Positions 14,705 through 50,093 of a stretch of DNA of 64,000 nucleotides are shown here, piece by piece. The DNA is from Physcomitrium patens (lineage: Eukaryota > Streptophyta > Bryopsida > Funariales > Funariaceae). The stretch's first letter is position 1, and every line of letters starts with the position of its first letter. Location: positions 14,286,182-14,350,181 of the forward strand of contig NC_037272.1 of the NCBI RefSeq assembly GCF_000002425.4. The letters run 5' to 3'. The notes beneath the pieces are model-generated. The model made no database searches. It was not told where the DNA came from and saw nothing but the letters and a program-made list of their open reading frames with translations. Made by a program: the position numbers and the translations under genes.

Positions 14705-17237
14705 TTGAAAATAATTATTAAAATTATAAATTATTCAATATAAGTTAATAATATATTTGAACAAGAATAAAACATCTAGAAGTTACAAAGCACAATTAGA
14801 TTTAGATAGGCAAAGACAAAACTTAATAATAAAATATCATTTTAAAAATAATTAATAAAAAGCTTTCTTAACTAAAAATATTGATTAATTTCTAATTAAA
14901 AAAAAATTCAAGTCAAATTATTAATTTGTTTCATATCATACATGGCCTAGAAAAAATAAATGATTTTATACATATCTTGTAAGTGACATGAAATATGCAT
15001 ATCATATTTAATATTGAGTCAAATTAAATTTTTATCTATTTCAAAACAATGAAAGTTTTAAAAGATTTTTTTTATAACAATAAGTTATTTTTCTAAGATT
15101 TAAAAGTTTTTGTACAATATGATATATAATTAGAAGACTTTTTTTTTATTTAATTTATAGATATAAGTTTTTTTTTATTTAAGAAAAAGAAAATATAATG
15201 GCTTATACATACACAAAAAATTGATTTGCTCATATATATTAGAATATGATCAAGTATTGTAGAAGGTTACATGTTATAAAATGGAAAAATAATAAAATAG
15301 CTGTGACACATTTCTTGGACGATTGAACATATCATAGATAACCAAAAACATTAAATGTTAAAACAAGTATAGAAAATTTAATAAAACTCATGAGTTTTAC
15401 AAAATAGCCAAGTAATTTATGATAAAAAAATAGTTACAGTAAGTAAAATCAGATTTTTGAATGTTTTTTTTGTAATAGATCTTAAATGTGTAGGTCTAAC
15501 TTATACCTATGGTGATAGGACCTGAAACATTATGTAATTCTTAATATATATATTAAATTTATCTTATTTTATATCACATATATATTATATATATCTAAGA
15601 TAACTTGGATATAACACAAAGAAACAAAGAAGTCTTTTGATTAGTTGTGAAGAAGAGAACTTGGAAAACATGGGGAATGTGGAGAAGACGAAAATGAGGG
15701 AACATAGGAATGTGAAAACATAGGAACTAGAGAACATAGGAATGAGGAAATCCATAAACTAGGGAACAATGGAGCATAGATAAATTAAAGAATGGATGAA
15801 TGTGCCAGAGATCATAGTGTCTAACAACACGGGTTTTCTGCTAGCATATATATACACACACACAAAAATAATACAAATACTATATGCTTAAAAACAAAAT
15901 GCTTGTTTTATGACTAAGATACTTGTTATATAATTTTCATGCTTATCTCTCTCACTTTGTCCAAATTTTCAAATGATGAACAACTAAAAGAAAAGAAAAC
16001 CAAAATACACAAGAAGGGATGAATGAAAAAGTGTCAAAAGCAAAGGACAGATTGTCTGAGAACTATGCTTAACACAAAAAGATCCATAAAAGACCATGTT
16101 GTGGCCAACTCATAGCTTGGTTTCAAGTCAATGGTAAATTTTCATTGAGAGTTGAAATTTAATAGAAGTTTTGTGTGCGTGCACTCAACACACATTTGAT
16201 AGCAAGTTTTGTGGAGAAGTGATGTCAATGGGCAAAATTACACAGTTGCAAAAAGATTCTCGTAGAGAATGAGCGCAGTCATGATCGATCGCACGTCCTT
16301 TAGTTCATAAACAGAATCTAGATTTATTCCAGTTCAATTTAGTATCCTCAAATGAATTGAAGCTTTGGTCATTTTCACAGGAATTTGTGCGTTTGCACCT
16401 CTCATCTCCGGAGCGACGACCACCTTGTTGCTGTGAACTCCGTGTTTGAGGCGTGTTCATTGAGCTATCAATCTCAGAACATCACCAGTTGTAACTTAAG
16501 CATATTCCTATCTAGTCAGATCGCAGTGAAGATGGGTTCAACTCGATGAGTATTCGGCACTTCTGGGTGGAAAGAAGACGCATGATTCGGTACTGCACAT
16601 GAGGATCACATGAGAAAACATCACTTCCTACTCAGTTTTGGACACTGTCCGAAGTCTGAGTTTGTCTGAAAAGTTAAGTTAAACTTGTACATTCATGTTT
16701 CTTAACGAGAGATTTACAAAAATTATGAAATCCGTATCAGGGAAGAGTGGGAAATATTTGCTGAAATGGAAGCGCGAAACTCTTGCTTACAGAAGCAATG
16801 AAGAGAAATGTAAAATATAAAAAGAAGATCTTCTGTGGAAGTGCTTTTCTTTTTGTTGCAATGATGCATACTCATTCATGTATATGCTGGCCTCACTATT
16901 TGTTTGTTTGTTTGTTTTTTTTTAACAACTATCAGTAACTGCAAGAATGTAGATGCAAAATGTAGAAAGCTTTATAATTGGAATAGATCAGATGAGATGG
17001 ACTTTCATGACAACTTAGATTGCTACCGTGCTACAGTCTGAGCAGCATCAATTCTATCAGATCTGAGAGTGGAAGGTAACAAGAGCTATTTTCTTACTTA
17101 AATCATGACATTTACATTTCTAGACTAATTGGCTACGTTACATGATGCTTACTAGCTGCAGTTGGCAAATGTTTCCTCTTTATATGCAAAAGCATCAAAT
17201 CTAAGCATGTCGAGCAAGTGGATTATGCGGTAGAACT

Positions 17238-20200
17238 CTATTCTGGTACTGGCTCGAAGAGCACCTTCTTCACAAACCCCGCCATGGCTGTCAGTGACGA
17301 AAACCTGTCAGTGTCCTTGTAGAACGCGTGCATGATCTTCGCCATGTTTAAGTGGATTCTCTTACAGGACTTCGGGACTGCGATGAAGCGTAGCACTTCG
17401 TAAGTCAGTTGTTGCATGGAATTATCCACCAATTCCTGCAGGTGAGCGATGGCCATGGCCTCTGAAGGCACACATGGGTGCTCCTCCATGTACATCTGCA
17501 CGCATAATTTCTTCCCTTGGTTAGCTTCTCTCTGGAAAGAGACATTGGCATTGATGTTTCCTTGTCAGTTCATGATGGAAACTTAGCAATGTGACTCTTT
17601 CGAGGGTTTAAAGGTTTCGAAGATAGGATTTCAGGTTATTGGAGTTGTGGAGAGAGAGACGATTACCTTCCTCCCTTGGATGTCGTTGAGGATTCGACCT
17701 ATGCGGTTGACGAGATGCATGACGTTATGGTAGTCATAACTGTCCAGCACATCCTCATCGAGCCTCTGGCCGACGAAGAAGAGTGCTACGTACAATGGGC
17801 TCTACTGCGATGAAGATTTCGGCGACTTCCATATACTCGTCGAAGGTGGGAACGTAGCCGGACGCTGCTCATTCGGCCTCTTTCAAACAGGAGGTGAGCC
17901 ATCTGTTCCACTACAGAAAACAAGTCATATCACAGGAAAATCACGTTAGAGAAGTCTATCCCAACCTTGTTCAATCGATAGAGGCACAAAACAAACACGT
18001 TTGTACTGAAGAGATGTGTAGGCAGAAAGACTCACGTAATGCTTGAAATGATGATGTACGTCTCGTTTCTGTGCCACGAATGCCTCCTCGGCGATGGTGT
18101 TCACAGTCTTGTACAGTCCCATGAAGAGAATCTTGGCTTGGTCAGGTAGTCCGTTGATGAGCTTGGGATTCCACGTCCTCACGGCCTACACAAAAACCCG
18201 AAGCTCTTCCACAGGTGTACCGACATCGAAGTAGTCGTCTAGAACGGTGGTGAGCACGCAACAGGGCGCCCAAACGCGCCTCGCCTGCACCATTTCGGGC
18301 TAAAACATTGTTGCAGGGCCTGCGAAGTAGCACTCCACGGATTTCTGTCTAGCAAAGTCGAGGTCTTTGAAATGGCAGCTAGCATTCCATTTGATGACAC
18401 GCTCGAGCTCCTTCTTTTGAAGAGCTTGGCACATGTTGAAGTCGGCTTTGGCCAATTTGAGAAACACTTTGTTGGTGACGGCCGGCATTCTATAGAGCGA
18501 CTTGTCGATCCAGATATCACAGGATCCTTTTGGTCCAAGTAGGTGCGATGCTCAAGACGAGGAAGGCTGGCGTACCAGGGGAATGTGAGATTGTACTCCA
18601 CCTCGTCCGCTAGATCCTTTGTGAGTATCTACTTATCGAAGCATTCATTGTTTTCATGCTTAGTTTTCAAAAAGCTTCTGGAAAAGCTTCTGGCCTATTG
18701 AAGGAGTGTTTCCCCTGGGTAGAGCGTTTGCTATGCTCGGCTTAGGTTGAACATCCCCGTGACGGCTTAGCTGGACTAGCCGGCGAAGCAAAAGAACTCA
18801 CCATCTTTGAAAAACTGTCTTAAGCAGTCTTCCTTGACGTCGAATCCGTGTGTGCGGAGAAGGCGGAAGGCCATCGCCGTGTCATCCACATCCTGCACAG
18901 TCGAATTGCTGGCCCTGCCAATACCACAATCCTTCCAGTATCTGCACGCAGAAAGAGTCGTGGAAAAGAATAAGTTCAAGACAAATTTTCAATCGTTGAG
19001 TCCGAACATCACAAGATGAAGGCGTCGAGTGGCACACTCCAATTCAAGTCTCTCATGGATACAAGGCATACTGGATTACATACTGTAGGCACTGTCTGAC
19101 TTCTCGCTCAAAGTAGCGGGATATTCGCAGCCTTTGTTGGCAGTCTACTATCCACAGTCGCTCGAAGAGTTCAACGGGGTACACGTTCGGACAAGCGTGG
19201 TCAAACTTGATGAGGAGCTGGTTCAAGTAGTCGAAGCACTTGGCATCTTTTGTGTACATGAGGGCGCATGCAGTGGATGCTGGTGAATACAGGAAGGAGC
19301 CATTCTCGGACTGTAGCTGGAGGAGCTAGTTCCAGTCCACTTCCTGGTGCAGGCTTTCCAGAGAATGCAGCAAAGTGGTGGGGTACTTATGCACCATCGC
19401 CATTGGAATCCTGCTCAAATTAATCACAAAAAATTATCAATGCCCCCAATTCATTGAATGCAAATGAGAACACGTTTTGCAGTCGTAGCAGATTTGCTCA
19501 TTCAGCAGTACTTCTAGAGTTACCTGGACATTCACTGTAGTTCTGTGATGACATTTCGAAAGTGAGGAGTTGGTGAAGCAAGACTGCTCACTCTTTCAAC
19601 TTCTCTCTTTCAGCCGCGATCTGTTGCAAGATAGTGGCATCGTATGGTAAATCCAGTTCCAGTGCCTTGGCATCTTCCATCATCGCTGGGAAGACTATCT
19701 CGAATCCAATGGGCATGTGATTGTCGTCATCTTCCTCCAGTTTCTAGATGTTGGATTGCAGAAACTGGACTCCTGGATAGAGTCCAAACCCACTATAGTT
19801 CAGAGGTGCGAAAACAGTGTCTTAATGTGTGGACGAAAGAGCAAGTATGTTGGAGGATTGTGAGAGAGACAGAGAACTCAAGTTTGTATTCTTACCACGC
19901 TCCATGTTCTGAGCCCCAACTTCCCAAGTTTTCAGGGCAACTACGCAGGCGAGAGTGTTGCAAACGCGATCGTGTCCAAGGAATAGAGACGGTTCACCCC
20001 AATCGCCGTCCGAGAGCTGGTTATCCATAATCCACTGCAAAGAGAGAGGGAACTGAGGGCTGTGGGAGCCATCCAGCGCTGGCACTCGCGCCACCCAAGC
20101 TGTGTCGCATGGAGACATGGATATTTCCCCCAATGTCATATTTCGGAAGTAATTGCTGATTTCCTCGATCCATTCGTTCATCTGTGCCTTCTCAGTCGCC

Positions 20201-21539
20201 TTTCGTGGCGTGGATCACACGCCATGCACAACACGTCAATCTCTAAACCCTTAGGATGAAGAACGCGAGTAAAATAAGGTTGTGATTATAATCATCTTGG
20301 TTATCAAATTCTGCAATGAGTCACTAAACGTTTGGGATTATGTCTTCACATAAAACACCATTTCATGAGGTGACATGGTTTTATAAAGCATTGCACATCC
20401 TTGGTGAAAAAAAAAAAAAAACAAAACAAAACAAAACAAAACAAACCAAAACAAAGTTCAATAAGAGACTTGCAAATTATCGCGTCTGGTACCTGTAACA
20501 GCCATTCCGTTATTTGTAAGGTTTCTGACCATATATCTGGTGCGTAAAAAGTGGACTGGATGTTAAGTTTCCATAGATACTGCATCATTAGCCAACGAAC
20601 ATGATTAGAAGCACTGATGAAGTGCAAAATGTGTTTTTCTTCAAGACTGCTAACTGTAACATTCATGCGATCACATATCAAATTGTTCACTACTTGCGGC
20701 TCTTTCTTACCCTTGTCTTTTAATTTTTAATTTTTGCCGAGTCGGTAGGAAGAAAAAATGACAGCCAATATGGAGACACACGACATCTTCATTTTCCCGT
20801 CTTTGTTCAGACATCTACGACATATTAAAGTGAAATGAAATTGTATACCTGAATCAATGACGCACTGCTGTAAGACTGCTTGCTTCTCACTCGGAAGCTT
20901 GTGAGTAAGGGACCCCTCCTGCAAGTGATCGTTTGAAGGAGGATTGATGCCCGAGGGTTCAGTTACAATACTGTAAGATCCGCTACCTGGTGAAGAAAGC
21001 CAAAACTGTTTAGTTGGTGAGAGTTGGGTAAACGCGCGCAAAAGATGAACCCAAAAGACGGAATTATTAGACTCAGAGATGCTACGCAAGTAGTTTAGAT
21101 TCATTTATTCCGTTTTTTCGCCTGTATTGTGTTCGAATCAAAAGGGTATGAAATGTCAGAAGACTTTGTGAAACAATTAAACGTGATTGAAGTAGTACCC
21201 AAACGTGTTTCATTGTGTCTAACGAGTGTGAAAATTACATTTTTGAAGCAAACCTAGCAAACTATTCTGGTCCAAGTGTAGGTGAATTACACAGTAACAA
21301 TGACTCATTCATGTACCCCTCACTCAGTTCAGCTTGTTCTTATGGTTTTAAAGATTACCAGGAGAGCGCTGGAGGACAGATTCAGTAGCTCGCAAATATA
21401 GACGTTTCTTCAGGCATTGAACTGCAGCATGAATACTAGCGCCTGGAAAACGTAGAGATTGCCCTCGAAAATTCTGAAAGGAAGACAGGCTTGACGTACC
21501 GCCAGAAGAGTGATTCTGTATCAAGGTGCTGGAAGCCAT
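17238..21539 (-). pseudogene. Bifunctional ent-copalyl diphosphate / ent-kaurene synthase (CPS/KS) pseudogene
   Basis: The intact moss enzyme cyclises geranylgeranyl diphosphate to ent-CPP (class II site) and then to ent-kaurene and 16-hydroxy-ent-kaurane (class I site). Nine exons are recognisable: 21539-21359, 20986-20891, 20579-20493, 20199-19896, 19772-19592, 19410-19072, 18941-18036, 17910-17667, 17531-17238, all with usable GT-AG signals. The start MASSTLIQN, the class II motif DVDD (VQDVDDTAMAF), the class I motif DDYFD and the end VKKVLFEPVPE are still readable. It is broken by in-frame stops at 19744, 19326, 18776, 18767, 18731, 18695, 18629, 18300, 18186 and 17869 (lowest coordinate of each codon). 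Exon 20579-20493 has a length that breaks the frame, and there are indels near 18525 and 17780. From memory it closely resembles P. patens CPS/KS. Intact splice sites with many stops suggest relatively recent loss. Confidence 0.93.
20411..20455. repeat. Poly-A plus (AAAAC)n microsatellite
   Basis: An A run followed by about seven AAAAC-type units, inside the intron between the third and fourth exons of the CPS/KS pseudogene. Confidence 0.9.
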
Positions 21540-23817
21540 CTCTTTCAGTCTTAATAATTCTTCTTTCGACGTTGAGACTTCTGATATAGTCTTCCCTGGA
21601 TATAAGAGTCTGATGATTCGGTTTCACTCCCTTCTCCTACTTGTGTTACTCGATGAGTCGGAAACGCCACCCCCGTACCTGAACGGCTCCCCACCCAATT
21701 AAAATCACTTAAAAGATCACATGAAACGCCAAGGAGTTCGTTCAGCATCTTCAGCAAACCGGTAGCAAGAATAGCGCGAACATCACCACCTGCAATGACA
21801 AAAAAGTGCAACCGCAAAACAAACAAGACGTCATACCCATGACAACGTAGACTGTGAAACCTAGAGACGAACACCACCTTGAGAACCCACCAGTTTGGCA
21901 GAACACAGCTGAGCTCGGTCACCAAGCATGCATTACCTGCATCAAGTTTCGGAAGGATTCAAACTAGCACCCAGTCATCAGCAAAGATGAATGTGCCGAA
22001 CGACCAGCACGTTCGTGACACAAGCCTTGTACCTGATCACAAGAGCATGTCGAACATTGCTGTCTTCAGCACTGTTTGAGGCTGTGGAAACCAATCATCC
22101 AGTGATTGGTTGCAATTCTGATCTGCAATTCGTGAGAGTCAGCCGGTGATTGAGGTCACTGAATCGAAATCATGTAATGGTCTAAATCAACGTCGCTGAA
22201 TTTAACCCGTGGGCAGCTATGAAACCAAATGCTTTCCAGTCTCAAGTTGCAAGTTTGGAGACCGGGCGGATCTACCTGATTCTCAAAAGGATCGGTAGAT
22301 GCTTTTGAGGAACCACCTGTCTCTTCTTTCCAACAAGATTCCTTTGAACCAATGTTAAATTTCCAAGTGCAAATTCATTAATTTCTTCATTTATTTATTC
22401 CATTTGTTGAAATCACGACAGGCTTGACCATCTTTAGCTATCCCAAGAATTATGATGTATGGGGCTCACGTGGATATATAGGGAAGGGTGGATACATGTA
22501 TACTTTGCTACATTTCCCATTTATCCATGCCATATGAACTCCTACAAATCAGAGAAACTACTCAAAGATAAGTTCATTGAATAAAAGACCACTTCATTGA
22601 ATAATAGAAAACATTTCAAAAGGACTTTAAACTACACAAAGAATAGAATAGCACACTGCACTAAAAACTAAATGTCTATTACTAGATTGAAATCCCTATT
22701 GTGTGGAATCCTAACCTTGACTTATGGATCCCCCTCACGCGCTACAACAATTGGAACAGAGCATGTGTTGAGACAAACAAGATGGAGCTGGGCTTGATGG
22801 GAGGGGGGGGGGGGATGAGCGACATGGCATTCGATGCAGGGCCAGGGGTGCCTTCCGATGGGGGCGGCAGCGAGAATGTTGGCGGTGGGTGAGAGCCTCC
22901 AAAATCTGGGCCATATTTAGGTGCTCGGCTAAACTGGTCCCCCTCGCTAATCTTCTCCATCGCACAATGTGGCGTCTGATTTGCTGGCACACATACACCC
23001 CACTCGCCATGGAATGCTTCTGAGCAGGTGGGTCTCACTCTGAAACCACTTTCCTTTCAGATGCTCTCGCTCAATCTCCTGTTGATTTGTTAGAAGCTGG
23101 AGTCATGGAATGTAATTCATTGTTGCTGTGCAGATGGACTGCATAGGTGGCTTTCTGATGTGGTTATGGTTTCTGTTAGGTCAGGGTCGTTGGTTGGTGA
23201 ATGAATCCAAGTGCCGAGGTTGTTGCCATGGCAGCAGAACCGGCGAGTGATTTTCTTTTTCAAGGCAGATCTCTCTTTTATGTGAGAGTGGGAAATAACT
23301 TGAGCAGGGGGTGTAGAGATCAGTTGTCATCTTCTTTGTGTAGGTTTGATGCGTGAGAATGACCATCGAATCGTATGTTCTATCTCTTGCACTCAGCTGG
23401 AGGGGGGGATTTTTGTGGCTAAGAGCTAGTGAGATTGTGCGAAGGATTTGGAATGTTTGCTCTCAGTGGGAGCCTTTGTGTTGAAGGTGTTCTGAATTGT
23501 TGTTTGGTGAATGAAACATCCGTTTGTGTACTTGAACCGTGCACTGCTAAATCAATGCGAAGACATATGGAGCGAGTTTATGGAACTTTCTGAACTGGGT
23601 CTCTCTGTTTAGTATCCCAGGTTCCAGCTCCAGCTGAATCGAATCACCGAGTTTAGGGTTTAACACTAACTTGATCATCCGTCAACAGCGATAACAGTGT
23701 TCATACACATGGTGTGGAGGTAGCCACGGAAAAGGGGGGAAGAGTTGCAGAGCAGTGACTTTCATGTTCAAGTTGGCGCCGAGATTCCTTGGTGTAGCGA
23801 AGTTGGGATGTTAAAGA
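21540..23817. other. Intergenic between divergent CPS/KS pseudogene and apyrase-like gene
   Basis: Serves as a shared upstream region for two genes transcribed away from each other. The first ~400 bases (to about 21950) keep moderate GC and probably include the old CPS/KS leader. A 12-base G run sits near 22803-22814. No open frame here shows homology I recognise or convincing splice support. Confidence 0.55.
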
Positions 23818-26722
23818 ATGATAGGAGATGGATGGGAGATTGGGCCTCATTCTTCTCGTAGGCAGAGTGGGGTGAACAGTCCTCGGAGACTGTCTCGCAC
23901 TCTAGACGCCTCTCGTGACTTCGACTCTTTTATGGAGTTTCCGAAGCTCCTGCAGAGGGGAGCATCTCTCAAGGTCCTTTCTCCAGCCAGATATCAACAG
24001 TACTCAAATGCGCAAAATGTCCGATCTACCTGCCAGAAAACGGCCTGGATGTCCCTTGGTCTCTGTCTGAGCTCCCTCCTCCTCCTCTACTTTCTCTTGC
24101 TGAGAAGGAGCCAATATGTATCACACCGTCAAAGTAAGGGTTATGGGGTGATCATAGACATCGGCCAGCGACAACAATCTCAATACAGTTCAAACATTGA
24201 GGCAAGGGTCCACATATTTACATTTGAGGATACCAATGCACTGACAGTAAAGGTTTTAGGTGAAAAGCCAAGCCGTGTTCTTTTTGATGAATCTAGCGGT
24301 GAATATGATGCATCTACTTCTTTCGGTGAACTTCTCGTGTTTGCCAAGGAGCTCGTACCTGAGCTCGAAAGGCTCCAAACCAGGCTTTATGTTCTTGGAA
24401 CTGGAGGTTTACAATGGGCGCCTATTGCTAAGTGGTTTGAGCTACTTCAACAGTGTCGAAACGTTTTTCGTGAATCAGGATTCCAGTTTCACGATGATTG
24501 GGCTTTGGTTGTGAACGGTGTGTTTCAAGGCTTATGATGATAGGTTTTGGTGAAAAACCATGCGTTCTTATTTGACTATCAGCAGGGTTTAATTGAGGAT
24601 TTTCTGTGACAGGCAGGGACCAAGGTGTCTATGAATGGGTGGCAGCTAATTACGCTCACGATACGCTAAAAAGTGATTCCGCAGACACAATTGGGGTCCT
24701 CTCCTTGGGCAGTGAATCAGCACAGGTCCCACACTCTGCACCTCAACCCAATCTCGTATCACTAGAACAGTTTGTATATCTGCATGAATTGGTCCTAATG
24801 CTGGTGTTGAACAAATTGAGTGCATGTTTCAAATTGTTGGTGAGAGGCTTAACAACAATTTGAACTCTGAGGTTCCTTGTGAAGAGACGGAAAGTAAATA
24901 GAGTTTGCAGTGTTTGCACATTGTTTGCAGGTCACTTTCATTGCAGAAGTAACACCTCCTCCTGCATATCTTTACAAAATTGAGCTATGGGGAACAACTC
25001 ACGAACTGTATTCCTACAACTTTGAGAAACTTGGTCTGGTAAGGACCCTTCTTGTTGAGATATCCTAGTGCAGCTGTTTATATCTGACAATAAAGTATAT
25101 GTACAGTACCTCGTGGATTTGCTGAAGGCAGGATTGTTGAAGGATACAATGAGTCACATTTAAGTCATCGCATTAAGTAGTTACACCATTCTACTGGAAC
25201 CGCCAGTGTGATCATAGAAAGATGTTATTTAAACCACTTTCCTTGGATTTTTATGTGCAGGAATCAGCATCAGACGGCTTACTGAAGTTATTGCACGCAA
25301 AAGAAGTTGCATCATGTGCGTCATTGACCGAAAATGTGTTTGTAATTCGCAGCTAGTACTTCAGCAGTTTGTACTTAATTTAAATAACAACGCTGACCTC
25401 GCAATTTTGATTTCATTTTGCAGCGGTAGGCCCTACAGATAACATAGTCGTGGTAGATCCTTGCCAACCAACAGGGTTCGAAGCCGATGCCAACTACTTG
25501 AAAACGCCAGCCAGAGATTTTCTTATAATGCCCACAGGCAATTTCACTGCTTGCCGAGCAGAATCTCATGCGCTGCTTCATCAGGGTCGAGGTATATTGG
25601 TGCATGATGAAGCCATAGACTCAAATCAGTTGCTATGGCAACTTTTCAAGTTTGGAGGTGTTGATTCCATTTGTTTAGCTCCTTTACGAGAGGTTTTCTG
25701 GACTGTCACGCTGTTCTATCCATTTGTAGCTTACAATTTTTCCAGTCCTAACGTTAAGAATGAATGCTCATAGCTTGGTGCTATGCCTCTCTTTGGTTCT
25801 TGTAGATGCTTGTCTGGACAGTAACTGTCCCATTGAAACCACTTTTGTTCCCGACCTTCGTGGAAACTTCATAGCGACTGGATACTTTTATCAAACATCA
25901 AAGGTGTAGTTTCATGAGCTATTTTTTGCTTTCCATAGGTTTCAGAGATTCGCTTGCATTAGCTTACGTGTTATCCTCTTGCTTCCTTTGTGACGTCTTC
26001 AAGCCTAGATGTTTGGAATAGAGGCCAAGTTACTAATACTCAGTTTGCCTCACTTCTTGCTCTGTCAATCATTAGAAATGGTTAATCTTAACCCTCGTGT
26101 GCTTAGAAAAGCTACGATCAATTCTCTCAGTTTTATAAACTCATCAGGATGTTCGGTTACACTTGCGTTTCATTGGAACAGCTGTTGGAAGCTACGGGAT
26201 CATTAGCTGAACTTGTAGTTGCCGGAGAGAGATACTGTTCAGCAGGTCAGAATAGCAAGCGAAATATCTGCTTCTCAGCTGCATACATCGTGGCATTCCT
26301 ACATGACAGTTTAGGTCTTCCAGACCACGGCAATAAGTAAGATCTCTCATCCATTTTAATCATGTTTTTGTTTGCGTGGAATTGATCAACTGCAATTACC
26401 TCTGTATTTGTCTAAGTTCTACGATCTGGACACTTCTAATGAGATTATCTGCGGCAGAGTCTTGTTCACTGATTCAGTGAACAGCGTGCCAGTGGAGTGG
26501 ACTCTTGGATTCTTTATATCACGCCTTTCAGAGGACAAGGCTGCGTACTCTCCATTGATCTTGTTTGAAGGGTTTTTCGGCATCGTTCTCTTATTTCTGG
26601 GCCTTTTAGCTACAGGGTCCTTGATATTTTGGTTTGTGACAAGGTTGCGAAGGCCTCAGCACAAAACCATTTACGACTTAGAAAAAGGTAGATATTTTAC
26701 GACTGCTGCTCGCGGTCGGTGA
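23818..26722 (+). CDS. Apyrase-like (GDA1/CD39 family, APY7-like) membrane protein with degenerate catalytic motifs
   Basis: Family members hydrolyse nucleoside tri- and diphosphates. Exons 23818-24517, 24613-24725, 24931-25038, 25261-25315, 25424-25591, 25806-25905, 26148-26336, 26458-26722 join to 565 residues; the 25905 donor is the least certain. An N-terminal basic tail is followed by a membrane segment at about 77-95 and a second one near the C terminus (about 514-539), the usual two-anchor layout. Family features include the GFQFHDDWALVVNG stretch, VYEWVAANYA, SAQVTF, ELYSYNF, DPCQPTGF, CRAESHALL, GNFIATGYFYQTSK, RNICFSAAYIVAFLHDSLG and VPVEWTLGFFI, most like plant apyrase 7. Conserved regions are altered: ACR1 lacks the Gly-Ser-Thr-Gly-Thr-Arg loop (VIIDIGQRQQ...ARVHIF); ACR2 reads GTGGLQ; ACR3 has Gln237 where the catalytic Glu is expected; ACR4 reads LGSESAQ. 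The frame is open, so it is probably expressed, but catalysis is doubtful. Confidence 0.85.
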
Positions 26723-48222: not shown

Positions 48223-50093
48223 ATGGATTTTTTCCGGGTTTGCGTCTTGGTTCTAGCATGGACCTGTTGCCTTTTTCACCCGCGATTGGTCCTCGCCGAT
48301 GCAGACGATTCCAATAGTACTAACTCAATCTGCCAGGCTATGGTGCCCTCCCCGAAGCTTGAAATGTTTGTTGATAAGTTGCCGAAACTCAGGAAAATTT
48401 CTTTTGCAAATGGCAAGAAGTTGACCATCGGAGTCTACAAAATCAAGCAGGTAAGACACAAAATTAGTGAATTTCACTCGCACTTTCAATTCACGCTCAC
48501 ATGTAGACCTTCAGCGTGCCCTCGAACTTCCAATGATCGATTCTGACAATTCCAAATCTATTGTTCAATCCACAGAAATTGCACAGAGACCTGCCACCGA
48601 CAACGCTGTATGCATACGGCACAACGGCACGGACAGCCTCCTACCCGGGGCCAACCCTGGAGGCAATCCAGAATGTGACATCCCATATTCGCTGGGAGAA
48701 TCACATTCATGATAAGGAGCACATGTTCACTGTTGATCCCACTGTAATGTGGGCCAATCCTAAGAAAGGGGGAGTTCCAATGGTCGTCCACCTTCACGGT
48801 GCCGAGACTGCGGCTGTATCTGATGGTTACCCTGACGCATGGTACACTGCCTTCGGAGATACGGGACACGCTTACACCACCAAGGATTACCAATATCCCA
48901 ACCAGCAGTCACCCACCATGCTCTGGTATCATGACCACACGTTCGGCATCACGAGGCTGAACATCTTGTCTGGAATGGCTGGGCTCTACATCATCCGGCC
49001 GAAGGAGAAGCTGCCGGCATGGATACCTCACAAGAACTACGAGGTGACGCTCTTTCTGCAGGACAAGGCCTTGTACAATGACGGCAGAATCAACTTCCCC
49101 ACCGTGGGACTGTCCCTGAGAAATCACCCTCACTGGTGCCCGGAGTATTTCGGCGACGTGATCCTCGTGAACGGCAAAGCATGGCCTTACCTCGTCGTCA
49201 AGCCTCGCAAGTACCGCTTCCGTCTCGTGAATGGTGGCAATGCGAGAGTTTTCGAGCTTTCTCTGAGCACCCACAAAACCGGCTTCATTCAAATTGGTAC
49301 CGACGGAGGACTCCTCGAAAAGCCGATGTATGTGAGCAGCTTAATCGCTGCTCCAGCGGAGAGGCTGGACTTCATCATCGATTTCTCCCTTGTCGCCGGG
49401 GAAGACATTATTCTCAAAAACTCAGCACTTGTGCCCTATCCCGACGGGGATCCAGCGTTCACCCCTCCCAGCACTCAAAGCATCATGAAGTTCAAGGTAA
49501 AGAAGTTTGACAAAGACGATGCGCCGAACTCTCCAGCCATCCCTGCAATGCTCCGGAAGCCAGACCCCGTGATCAGCTTAGAAAATGCCACATGGAGAAC
49601 AAACACGATGATCGAAATCGCCGACGAGGACGATTTTCCCACTGGTTCCCTCCTTTCCAACCTCACCTGGATGGACCCAGTGACCGATATCCCTTACCTC
49701 GGCTCCACCGAGATCTGGGAGTTCATCAATCTTACCCCAGACGCGCACCCCATGCACATCCACCTGATTAAATTCAAGGTGCTCAACATCCAACCCTTCA
49801 ACCTCACACTCTACGAGGAGAAGGGCTGCCATCGCTTCGAGCACTCCTACCGCGGCCCGGGGAGCTGCATCACGGAGGACCCTGTGGAGCCCAAGGCGTA
49901 CCACGCAGGATGGAAAGATACCGTGATTGCACTTCCTGGTTACATAACCAGGCTGGTGTTGCACTGGAGCCCGGAATACGGCGGCGAGTTCCCGTTCGAC
50001 GCGACTGCAAAGCCTGGGTACCTCTGGCATTGCCACATCCTGGACCACGAGGATAACGACATGATGCGCCCTATTCAGATGCTGAGGAGATAG
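48223..50093 (+). CDS. LPR-type multicopper oxidase (ferroxidase), secreted
   Basis: Homologue of Arabidopsis LPR1/LPR2, apoplastic ferroxidases that control root growth under low phosphate through iron redox. Exons 48223-48450 and 48576-50093 give 581 residues, the length I recall for LPR1. A signal peptide covers roughly residues 1-25 (hydrophobic VCVLVLAWTCCLF). Copper ligands are complete: HLHG (148-151), WYHDH (194-198 region), HPMHIH (467-472) and HCHILDHEDNDMM (561-573), which covers the type 1 and trinuclear sites. The early segment MFVDKLPKLRKI and HRDLPPTTLYAYG are characteristic of the LPR/bilirubin-oxidase-like branch rather than of laccases. The single large second exon and fairly high GC set it apart from the many-exon genes nearby. 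No defects seen. Confidence 0.95.

Follow-up and report, generated by a model that had tools for sequence, protein, structure and literature searches.

The bifunctional diterpene synthase of the moss Physcomitrium patens, PpCPS/KS, makes ent-kaurene from GGPP, and Ile741 of the enzyme is named in the same work (PMC5118566, excerpt). Additionally, excerpts of two further papers name the motifs DVDD and DDYFD for terpene synthases (TPS) of P. patens (PMC6681836) and write the residue controlling the hydroxylated product as A610 (PMC13098426); the former cites one TPS survey of this moss and itself finds three TPS-c members. In P. patens with the native CPS/KS replaced, no ent-kaurene diterpenes were detectable, the two major wild-type diterpenoids being written 16-ent-kaurene and 16-OH-ent-kaurene in the excerpted text (PMC4850407). 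Among seed plants, 18 terpene synthase pseudogenes are recorded for tomato (PMC7422722, excerpt).

The window analysed here, a stretch of 64,000 nucleotides of P. patens DNA (C20:14286182-14350181), carries a relative of this gene at window positions 17238-21539 on the minus strand (C20:14303419-14307720). We put at roughly 0.9 the probability that it is a non-processed CPS/KS pseudogene, a dead duplicate whose history would have comprised duplication, capture of a segment by a transposable element, amplification of that segment and decay. Its exons and stops were called by exon-by-exon alignment to an intact gene on C7, whose alignment columns define the codons at which the stops were called, and the nine exons are 83-92% identical to it. 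The features, in window coordinates, are:

21359-21539, minus strand: exon 1; 90.1% identity to the intact C7 gene; GT donor kept
20891-20986, minus strand: exon 2; 90.6% identity to the intact C7 gene; AG/GT kept
20493-20579, minus strand: exon 3; 82.8%; AG/GT kept; 8-bp frameshift deletion near 20567
19896-20199, minus strand: exon 4; 90.5%; AG/GT kept; match to abietadiene synthase 3s9v, E 8.5e-29
19592-19772, minus strand: exon 5; 92.3%; AG/GT kept; stop at 19746; 3-bp in-frame deletion near 19599
19072-19410, minus strand: exon 6; 90.9%; AG/GT kept; stop at 19328; open piece slightly under the PF01397 cut-off
18036-18941, minus strand: exon 7; 92.1%; AG/GT kept; 1-bp deletion at 18529
18778, 18769, 18733, 18697, 18631, 18302 and 18188, minus strand: stops in exon 7, from the alignment to the intact C7 gene
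17667-17910, minus strand: exon 8; 89.3%; AG/GT kept; TGA at 17871; 2-bp deletion near 17783
17238-17531, minus strand: exon 9, up to the normal stop codon; 91.2%; AG kept

All 16 splice dinucleotides are kept, with GT at 8/8 donors and AG at 8/8 acceptors; the sequence-only reading of the locus as nine exons with GT-AG junctions encoding a bifunctional CPS/KS, interrupted by ten in-frame stops and three frame disruptions, is borne out by the alignment. Measured against the intact gene, the stops comprise eight TAG, one TAA and one TGA, and three deletions break the frame, exon 3 having lost 8 bp, exon 7 a single base pair and exon 8 2 bp; the 3-bp deletion in exon 5 leaves it unbroken. Loss of a CPS/KS copy through point mutations and these small deletions is, thus, the correct description. 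TAG is over-represented among the stops (8/10 versus 44-47% expected), with a post hoc p of 0.03; there is no rise in TAG gains out of frame, and we treat the preponderance as chance.

The window copy lacks an open frame able to make the enzyme, whereas the intact C7 gene has one. The class II motif DVDD and the class I motif DDYFD are still readable in its exon 7, and residue 710 is Cys, as opposed to Ala in the intact gene. When eight open pieces were compared with Pfam, one scored above the cut-off for Terpene_synth (PF01397) and one above that for Terpene_synth_C (PF03936); three of the remainder match one or other of these families below cut-off, and the others neither. A six-frame search of the locus places both PF03936 and PF01397 above cut-off and, among known structures, the piece at 19822-20214 matches abietadiene synthase (E 8.5e-29) and ent-copalyl diphosphate synthase (E 1.5e-24). 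Judged by these matches, the homology of the feature to diterpene synthases is far beyond chance.

Further open frames in the window lie on the plus strand. That at 23815-24537 encodes a probable apyrase (GDA1_CD39); its strand is opposite to that of the pseudogene, from whose 5' end it is separated by ~2.3 kb. That at 48537-50093 is a 518-codon multicopper oxidase frame, intronless over this stretch, with PF07731 and PF07732 above cut-off; presumably, it resembles the CotA/bilirubin-oxidase type, and it is possibly of bacterial origin.

Two outcomes had been envisaged for this lineage from the sequence alone: a second, functional copy elsewhere, or the loss of ent-kaurene synthesis. Queried with the window DNA and with the two Pfam families Terpene_synth_C and Terpene_synth, the genome (470,438,890 bases, 470 Mb, in 101 contigs) yielded seven TPS-like loci: two on C7 and one each on C20 (the window), C3, C16, C21 and C11. 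The first outcome is the one that emerged, as an intact CPS/KS (L009) occupies C7:1153913-1158157 on the minus strand. It splices, with GT-AG at 8/8 introns, to 2646 bases (881 codons plus stop, no premature stop), and its protein matches PF01397 (E 8.7e-44) and PF03936 (E 2.8e-69), with DVDD at 417-420, DDYFD at 635-639, Ala710 and Ile741. In the gene model, positions 610 and 710 are both occupied by Ala, and it is Ala710 that we take to govern formation of the hydroxylated product. From its sequence, the intact C7 gene is taken to be PpCPS/KS.

The second outcome is not borne out for this genome: the intact gene is present and, since replacement of CPS/KS leaves no diterpenes detectable (PMC4850407, excerpt), the pathway is not lost in P. 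patens and is independent of the window copy. A potentially surprising claim, that ent-kaurene synthesis had been lost in a moss, is thereby removed. Among the seven TPS-like loci, only the intact C7 gene looks able to work. A review reportedly credits P. patens with a single functional TPS out of a small number of sequences. The description of mosses as having a single CPS/KS fits as regards function and fails as a count of sequences, given seven TPS-like loci; the decayed loci may explain the differing TPS counts between surveys of this species.

The second C7 copy (L010, at ~0.96 Mb) is inverted and lies ~190 kb from the intact gene (~1.155 Mb), to which it is 94% identical over ~7 kb. It is damaged by two stops, by a 10-bp and a 16-bp insertion and by DVDS replacing DVDD; one of the stops falls in exon 1, where the alignment is uncertain owing to the 10-bp insertion. 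Changes unique to this copy are spread evenly over codon positions 1, 2 and 3 (11/336, 9/360 and 11/325, respectively). Any CPS/KS primer design must separate the intact C7 gene from this inverted duplicate. The C11 relic (L032 4380-5109, corresponding to C11:16741380-16742109) is an older TPS, with 67% and 54% identity in two stretches; it has DVDE replacing DVDD and one stop, and its exon-7 sequence is joined almost directly to exon-8/9 sequence.

The window and both C7 loci have a block in common:

15846-22175 (~6.3 kb), minus strand: duplicated block (blastn, 85-87%)

Divergence between the window and C7 is 13.8% at third positions and 14.5% in introns, and that between the two C7 copies is 4.9 and 4.6%, respectively. 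The moss rate is near 9e-9 per site per year, by which the window/C7 split would date to roughly 8 million years ago and the C7/C7 split to roughly 2.5. An excerpt of PMC13120521 describes two genome duplications in the history of P. patens, and the C20 copy might, in principle, have been separated from the C7 gene by one of them instead of arising as a small dispersed duplicate. We consider this highly unlikely: the intron and third-position divergence, at only ~14%, is too young for those events, judged by their Ks values. Moreover, the apyrase neighbour has no match on C7, its further matches being on C23 and on C9, and the C20 and C7 copies, therefore, do not have the look of a pair left by whole-genome duplication; beyond ~15.1-22.2 kb, comparison of the window with 100 kb of C7 returns only matches of 70-78%, many of them multi-place. 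A dispersed duplicate is the reading that we retain.

Part of the pseudogene recurs in the genome on three further contigs:

18151-19861, minus strand: segment from inside intron 4 to inside exon 7, re-found in inverted-repeat elements on C21 (L012) and C16 (L013) (blastn, 88-90%)
18151-19152, minus strand: segment re-found on C3 (L011) (blastn, 88-90%)

The fragment is flanked by inverted repeats within the element, of 423 bp (93%) on C21 and 431 bp (86%) on C16; these repeats (~425 bp) begin near GGGAAAATATCAC. The C3 copy has the 5' repeat only, the 3' repeat being missing. At the exon-7 side, the inner junction is common to all three fragments, and at the intron-4 side to those on C21 and C16; these common junctions argue for one capture. 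With up to one mismatch allowed, the genome contains 35 occurrences of the end motif, GGRAAAATATCACACATGCCC (reversed control, 0), and the full inverted repeat has at least 42 genome matches (40 of 357 candidates scored). Target-site duplications are indicated for most of the elements with both ends, seven of nine agreeing at 7 or more of 9 flank bases and one (L034) perfectly (9/9). For the carriers, against the target-site duplication of 8-11 bp expected of a Pack-MULE, the flanks agree at 8 of 9 bases on C16 and at 4 of 9 on C21, and there is one end only on C3. L038 likewise shows no target-site duplication, its flanks agreeing at 5 of 9 bases; L015, which is young as judged by its 99% identical repeats, shows agreement at only 7 of 9. 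In controls based on the first six elements, agreement at 7 or more bases was seen in 6/30 swapped pairs and 96/5000 random pairs.

In the open reading frame lists of individual repeat elements, no transposase was recognised by eye, and two open reading frames had no match in Pfam; the question was settled by a six-frame search for the MULE transposase domain (PF10551), which gave at least 115 matches with 150 of 239 candidates scored. These were compared with 60 repeat pieces, namely, the 42 full-repeat matches and the 18 of the 35 end-motif matches that do not overlap them: PF10551 lies within 3.5 kb inward of six of the 60 pieces and outward of none, with ~0.05 expected per side. Four distinct elements combine the domain with the carriers' repeats (two on C2, one on C10 and one on C17), and stops are present in all four domain copies. 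Thus, long terminal inverted repeats surround a host-gene fragment on C21 and C16, with the 5' repeat alone on C3, and related elements hold the MULE domain, albeit in copies with stops; from their sequences, the carriers on C21, C16 and C3 are probably Pack-MULEs. Same-type inverted repeats are also found at L035 202-2241 (C26:6285294-6287333), where a 232-codon open frame lacking a Pfam match lies in the interior; no parent gene was identified for this interior, which has 18 other genome matches.

The order of events can be read from the segment common to these copies. Its tree sets the two C7 copies apart, with support of 100, from a group made up of the window and the fragments, in the form (L009,L010) versus (window,(L013,(L011,L012))); this split is backed by 76 sites when the C3 fragment is left out (other patterns, at most 7) and by 37 when it is included. 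Rooted with the C11 relic, the window and the fragments again form a group (support 86). Only a short stem (0.0036, support 83) joins the fragments, and the case for a single capture, therefore, rests mainly on the shared inner junctions. At the window stops that they cover, the C21 and C16 fragments have sense codons throughout (9/9), and the C3 fragment shares one of seven, at codon 455 (CAG to TAG). Common decay of the window copy and the fragments is rejected on these grounds for C21 and C16; C3 has the single shared stop. The distribution indicates that capture from the C20 lineage preceded most of the decay, and perhaps all of it if the codon-455 stop arose twice.

We propose the following sequence of events. 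A dispersed duplication would have placed a second CPS/KS on C20, after which a Mutator-like element would have copied the stretch from inside intron 4 to inside exon 7 of the C20-lineage gene, the resulting Pack-MULE spreading to C21, C16 and C3. The redundant C20 gene would then have lost constraint, and most or all of its stops and indels would have accumulated once the capture had taken place. Finally, the C7 gene would have been duplicated again, inverted and ~190 kb away, and that copy would have decayed too.

Loss of constraint was gauged from changes unique to each copy, counting only sites that are covered by the C21 and C16 fragments and at which the other copies agree. For the intact C7 gene, these number 2/327, 0/351 and 7/321 at codon positions 1, 2 and 3, respectively, and 4/259 in introns; for the window copy, they number 15/340, 9/360 and 17/331, and 8/263 in introns. 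The window copy, hence, has the attributes of a non-processed pseudogene (introns kept, disabling changes, codon-position constraint lost), with the qualification that its unique changes are still somewhat fewer at second (9/360) than at third positions (17/331); part of the window branch may have been under constraint. That the stops are merely errors of assembly or sequencing is extremely improbable, as the damage is accompanied by ~14% intron divergence, three frameshifts and this relaxed codon-position pattern, and the 881-codon C7 gene in the same assembly is clean. We also give very little credence to the idea that the C20 copy still works by giving rise to regulatory RNA, such as antisense or small RNA, directed at the C7 gene: its exons are still 83-92% identical to the intact gene and truncated copies reside in transposable elements, as such a role might favour, whereas its unique changes are similar across the codon positions (0.044, 0.025 and 0.051) and introns (0.030).

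The reading from sequence alone had stressed that the splice sites stay intact. Neutral decay of the window gene was simulated (400 runs per divergence level; 32 splice bases tracked), and all 32 bases survived in 28% of runs at 4% divergence and in 19% at 5%; given the former figure, the splice sites of the window copy are unremarkable, and the stress laid on them finds no support. The stops are a different matter. At 4% divergence, the simulated decay yields a mean of 4.3, and the share of runs reaching 10 or more is 0.25% at this level, rising to 4% when divergence is 5% and to 19% when it is 7%. The ten stops exceed what is predicted from the ~4% unique changes on the window branch, and accounting for them would call for decay that was older or faster, or for chance.

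Methylation-driven decay of the window copy is rejected: C>T and G>A account for only 13/49 of its unique changes, compared with 28/65 on C21 and 58/97 on C16, so the deamination bias sits in the transposon copies. This location of the bias also speaks against a scheme in which small RNAs from the Pack-MULEs silenced the homologous C20 gene in trans, helped to kill it and perhaps still tune the C7 gene. We regard this scheme as very unlikely; were it true, a duplicate of a hormone-precursor gene would have been lost through transposon capture. The reading that we prefer remains decay of a redundant duplicate.

The locus serves as a documented example, outside the seed plants, of a hormone-pathway gene copied by a Mutator-like element, in which duplication, capture, amplification and donor decay can be read in order. 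Among the matches listed in searches of the literature on TPS or CPS/KS pseudogenes and on Pack-MULE or transposon capture in moss (mostly open papers, by title or the start of the abstract), neither this pseudogene nor a moss Pack-MULE is described and, tentatively, we found no earlier description of Pack-MULE carriage of a diterpene synthase fragment.

Compared with PpCPS/KS (BAF61135, cited in the excerpt of PMC5118566), the window copy has the same nine-exon layout, exon identities of 83-92% and readable DVDD and DDYFD motifs; it differs in its ten stops, its three frameshifts, Cys710 in place of Ala and the absence of clear constraint. Its transposon-borne relatives resemble Pack-MULEs (excerpts: PMC6446971 for the features of MULEs, PMC8277862 for Pack-MULE/Pack-TIR models) in their long terminal inverted repeats, in target-site duplications of ~9 bp in most members of the family, in the multicopy host fragment with introns kept and in having relatives with the MULE transposase domain. 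They depart from known Pack-MULEs in that the host is a moss, the donor gene is now a pseudogene and the C21 carrier is without a target-site duplication. Lastly, decayed duplicates beside working family members recall the terpene synthase pseudogenes of seed plants (PMC7422722, excerpt), although in the moss only one of the seven loci found looks intact.
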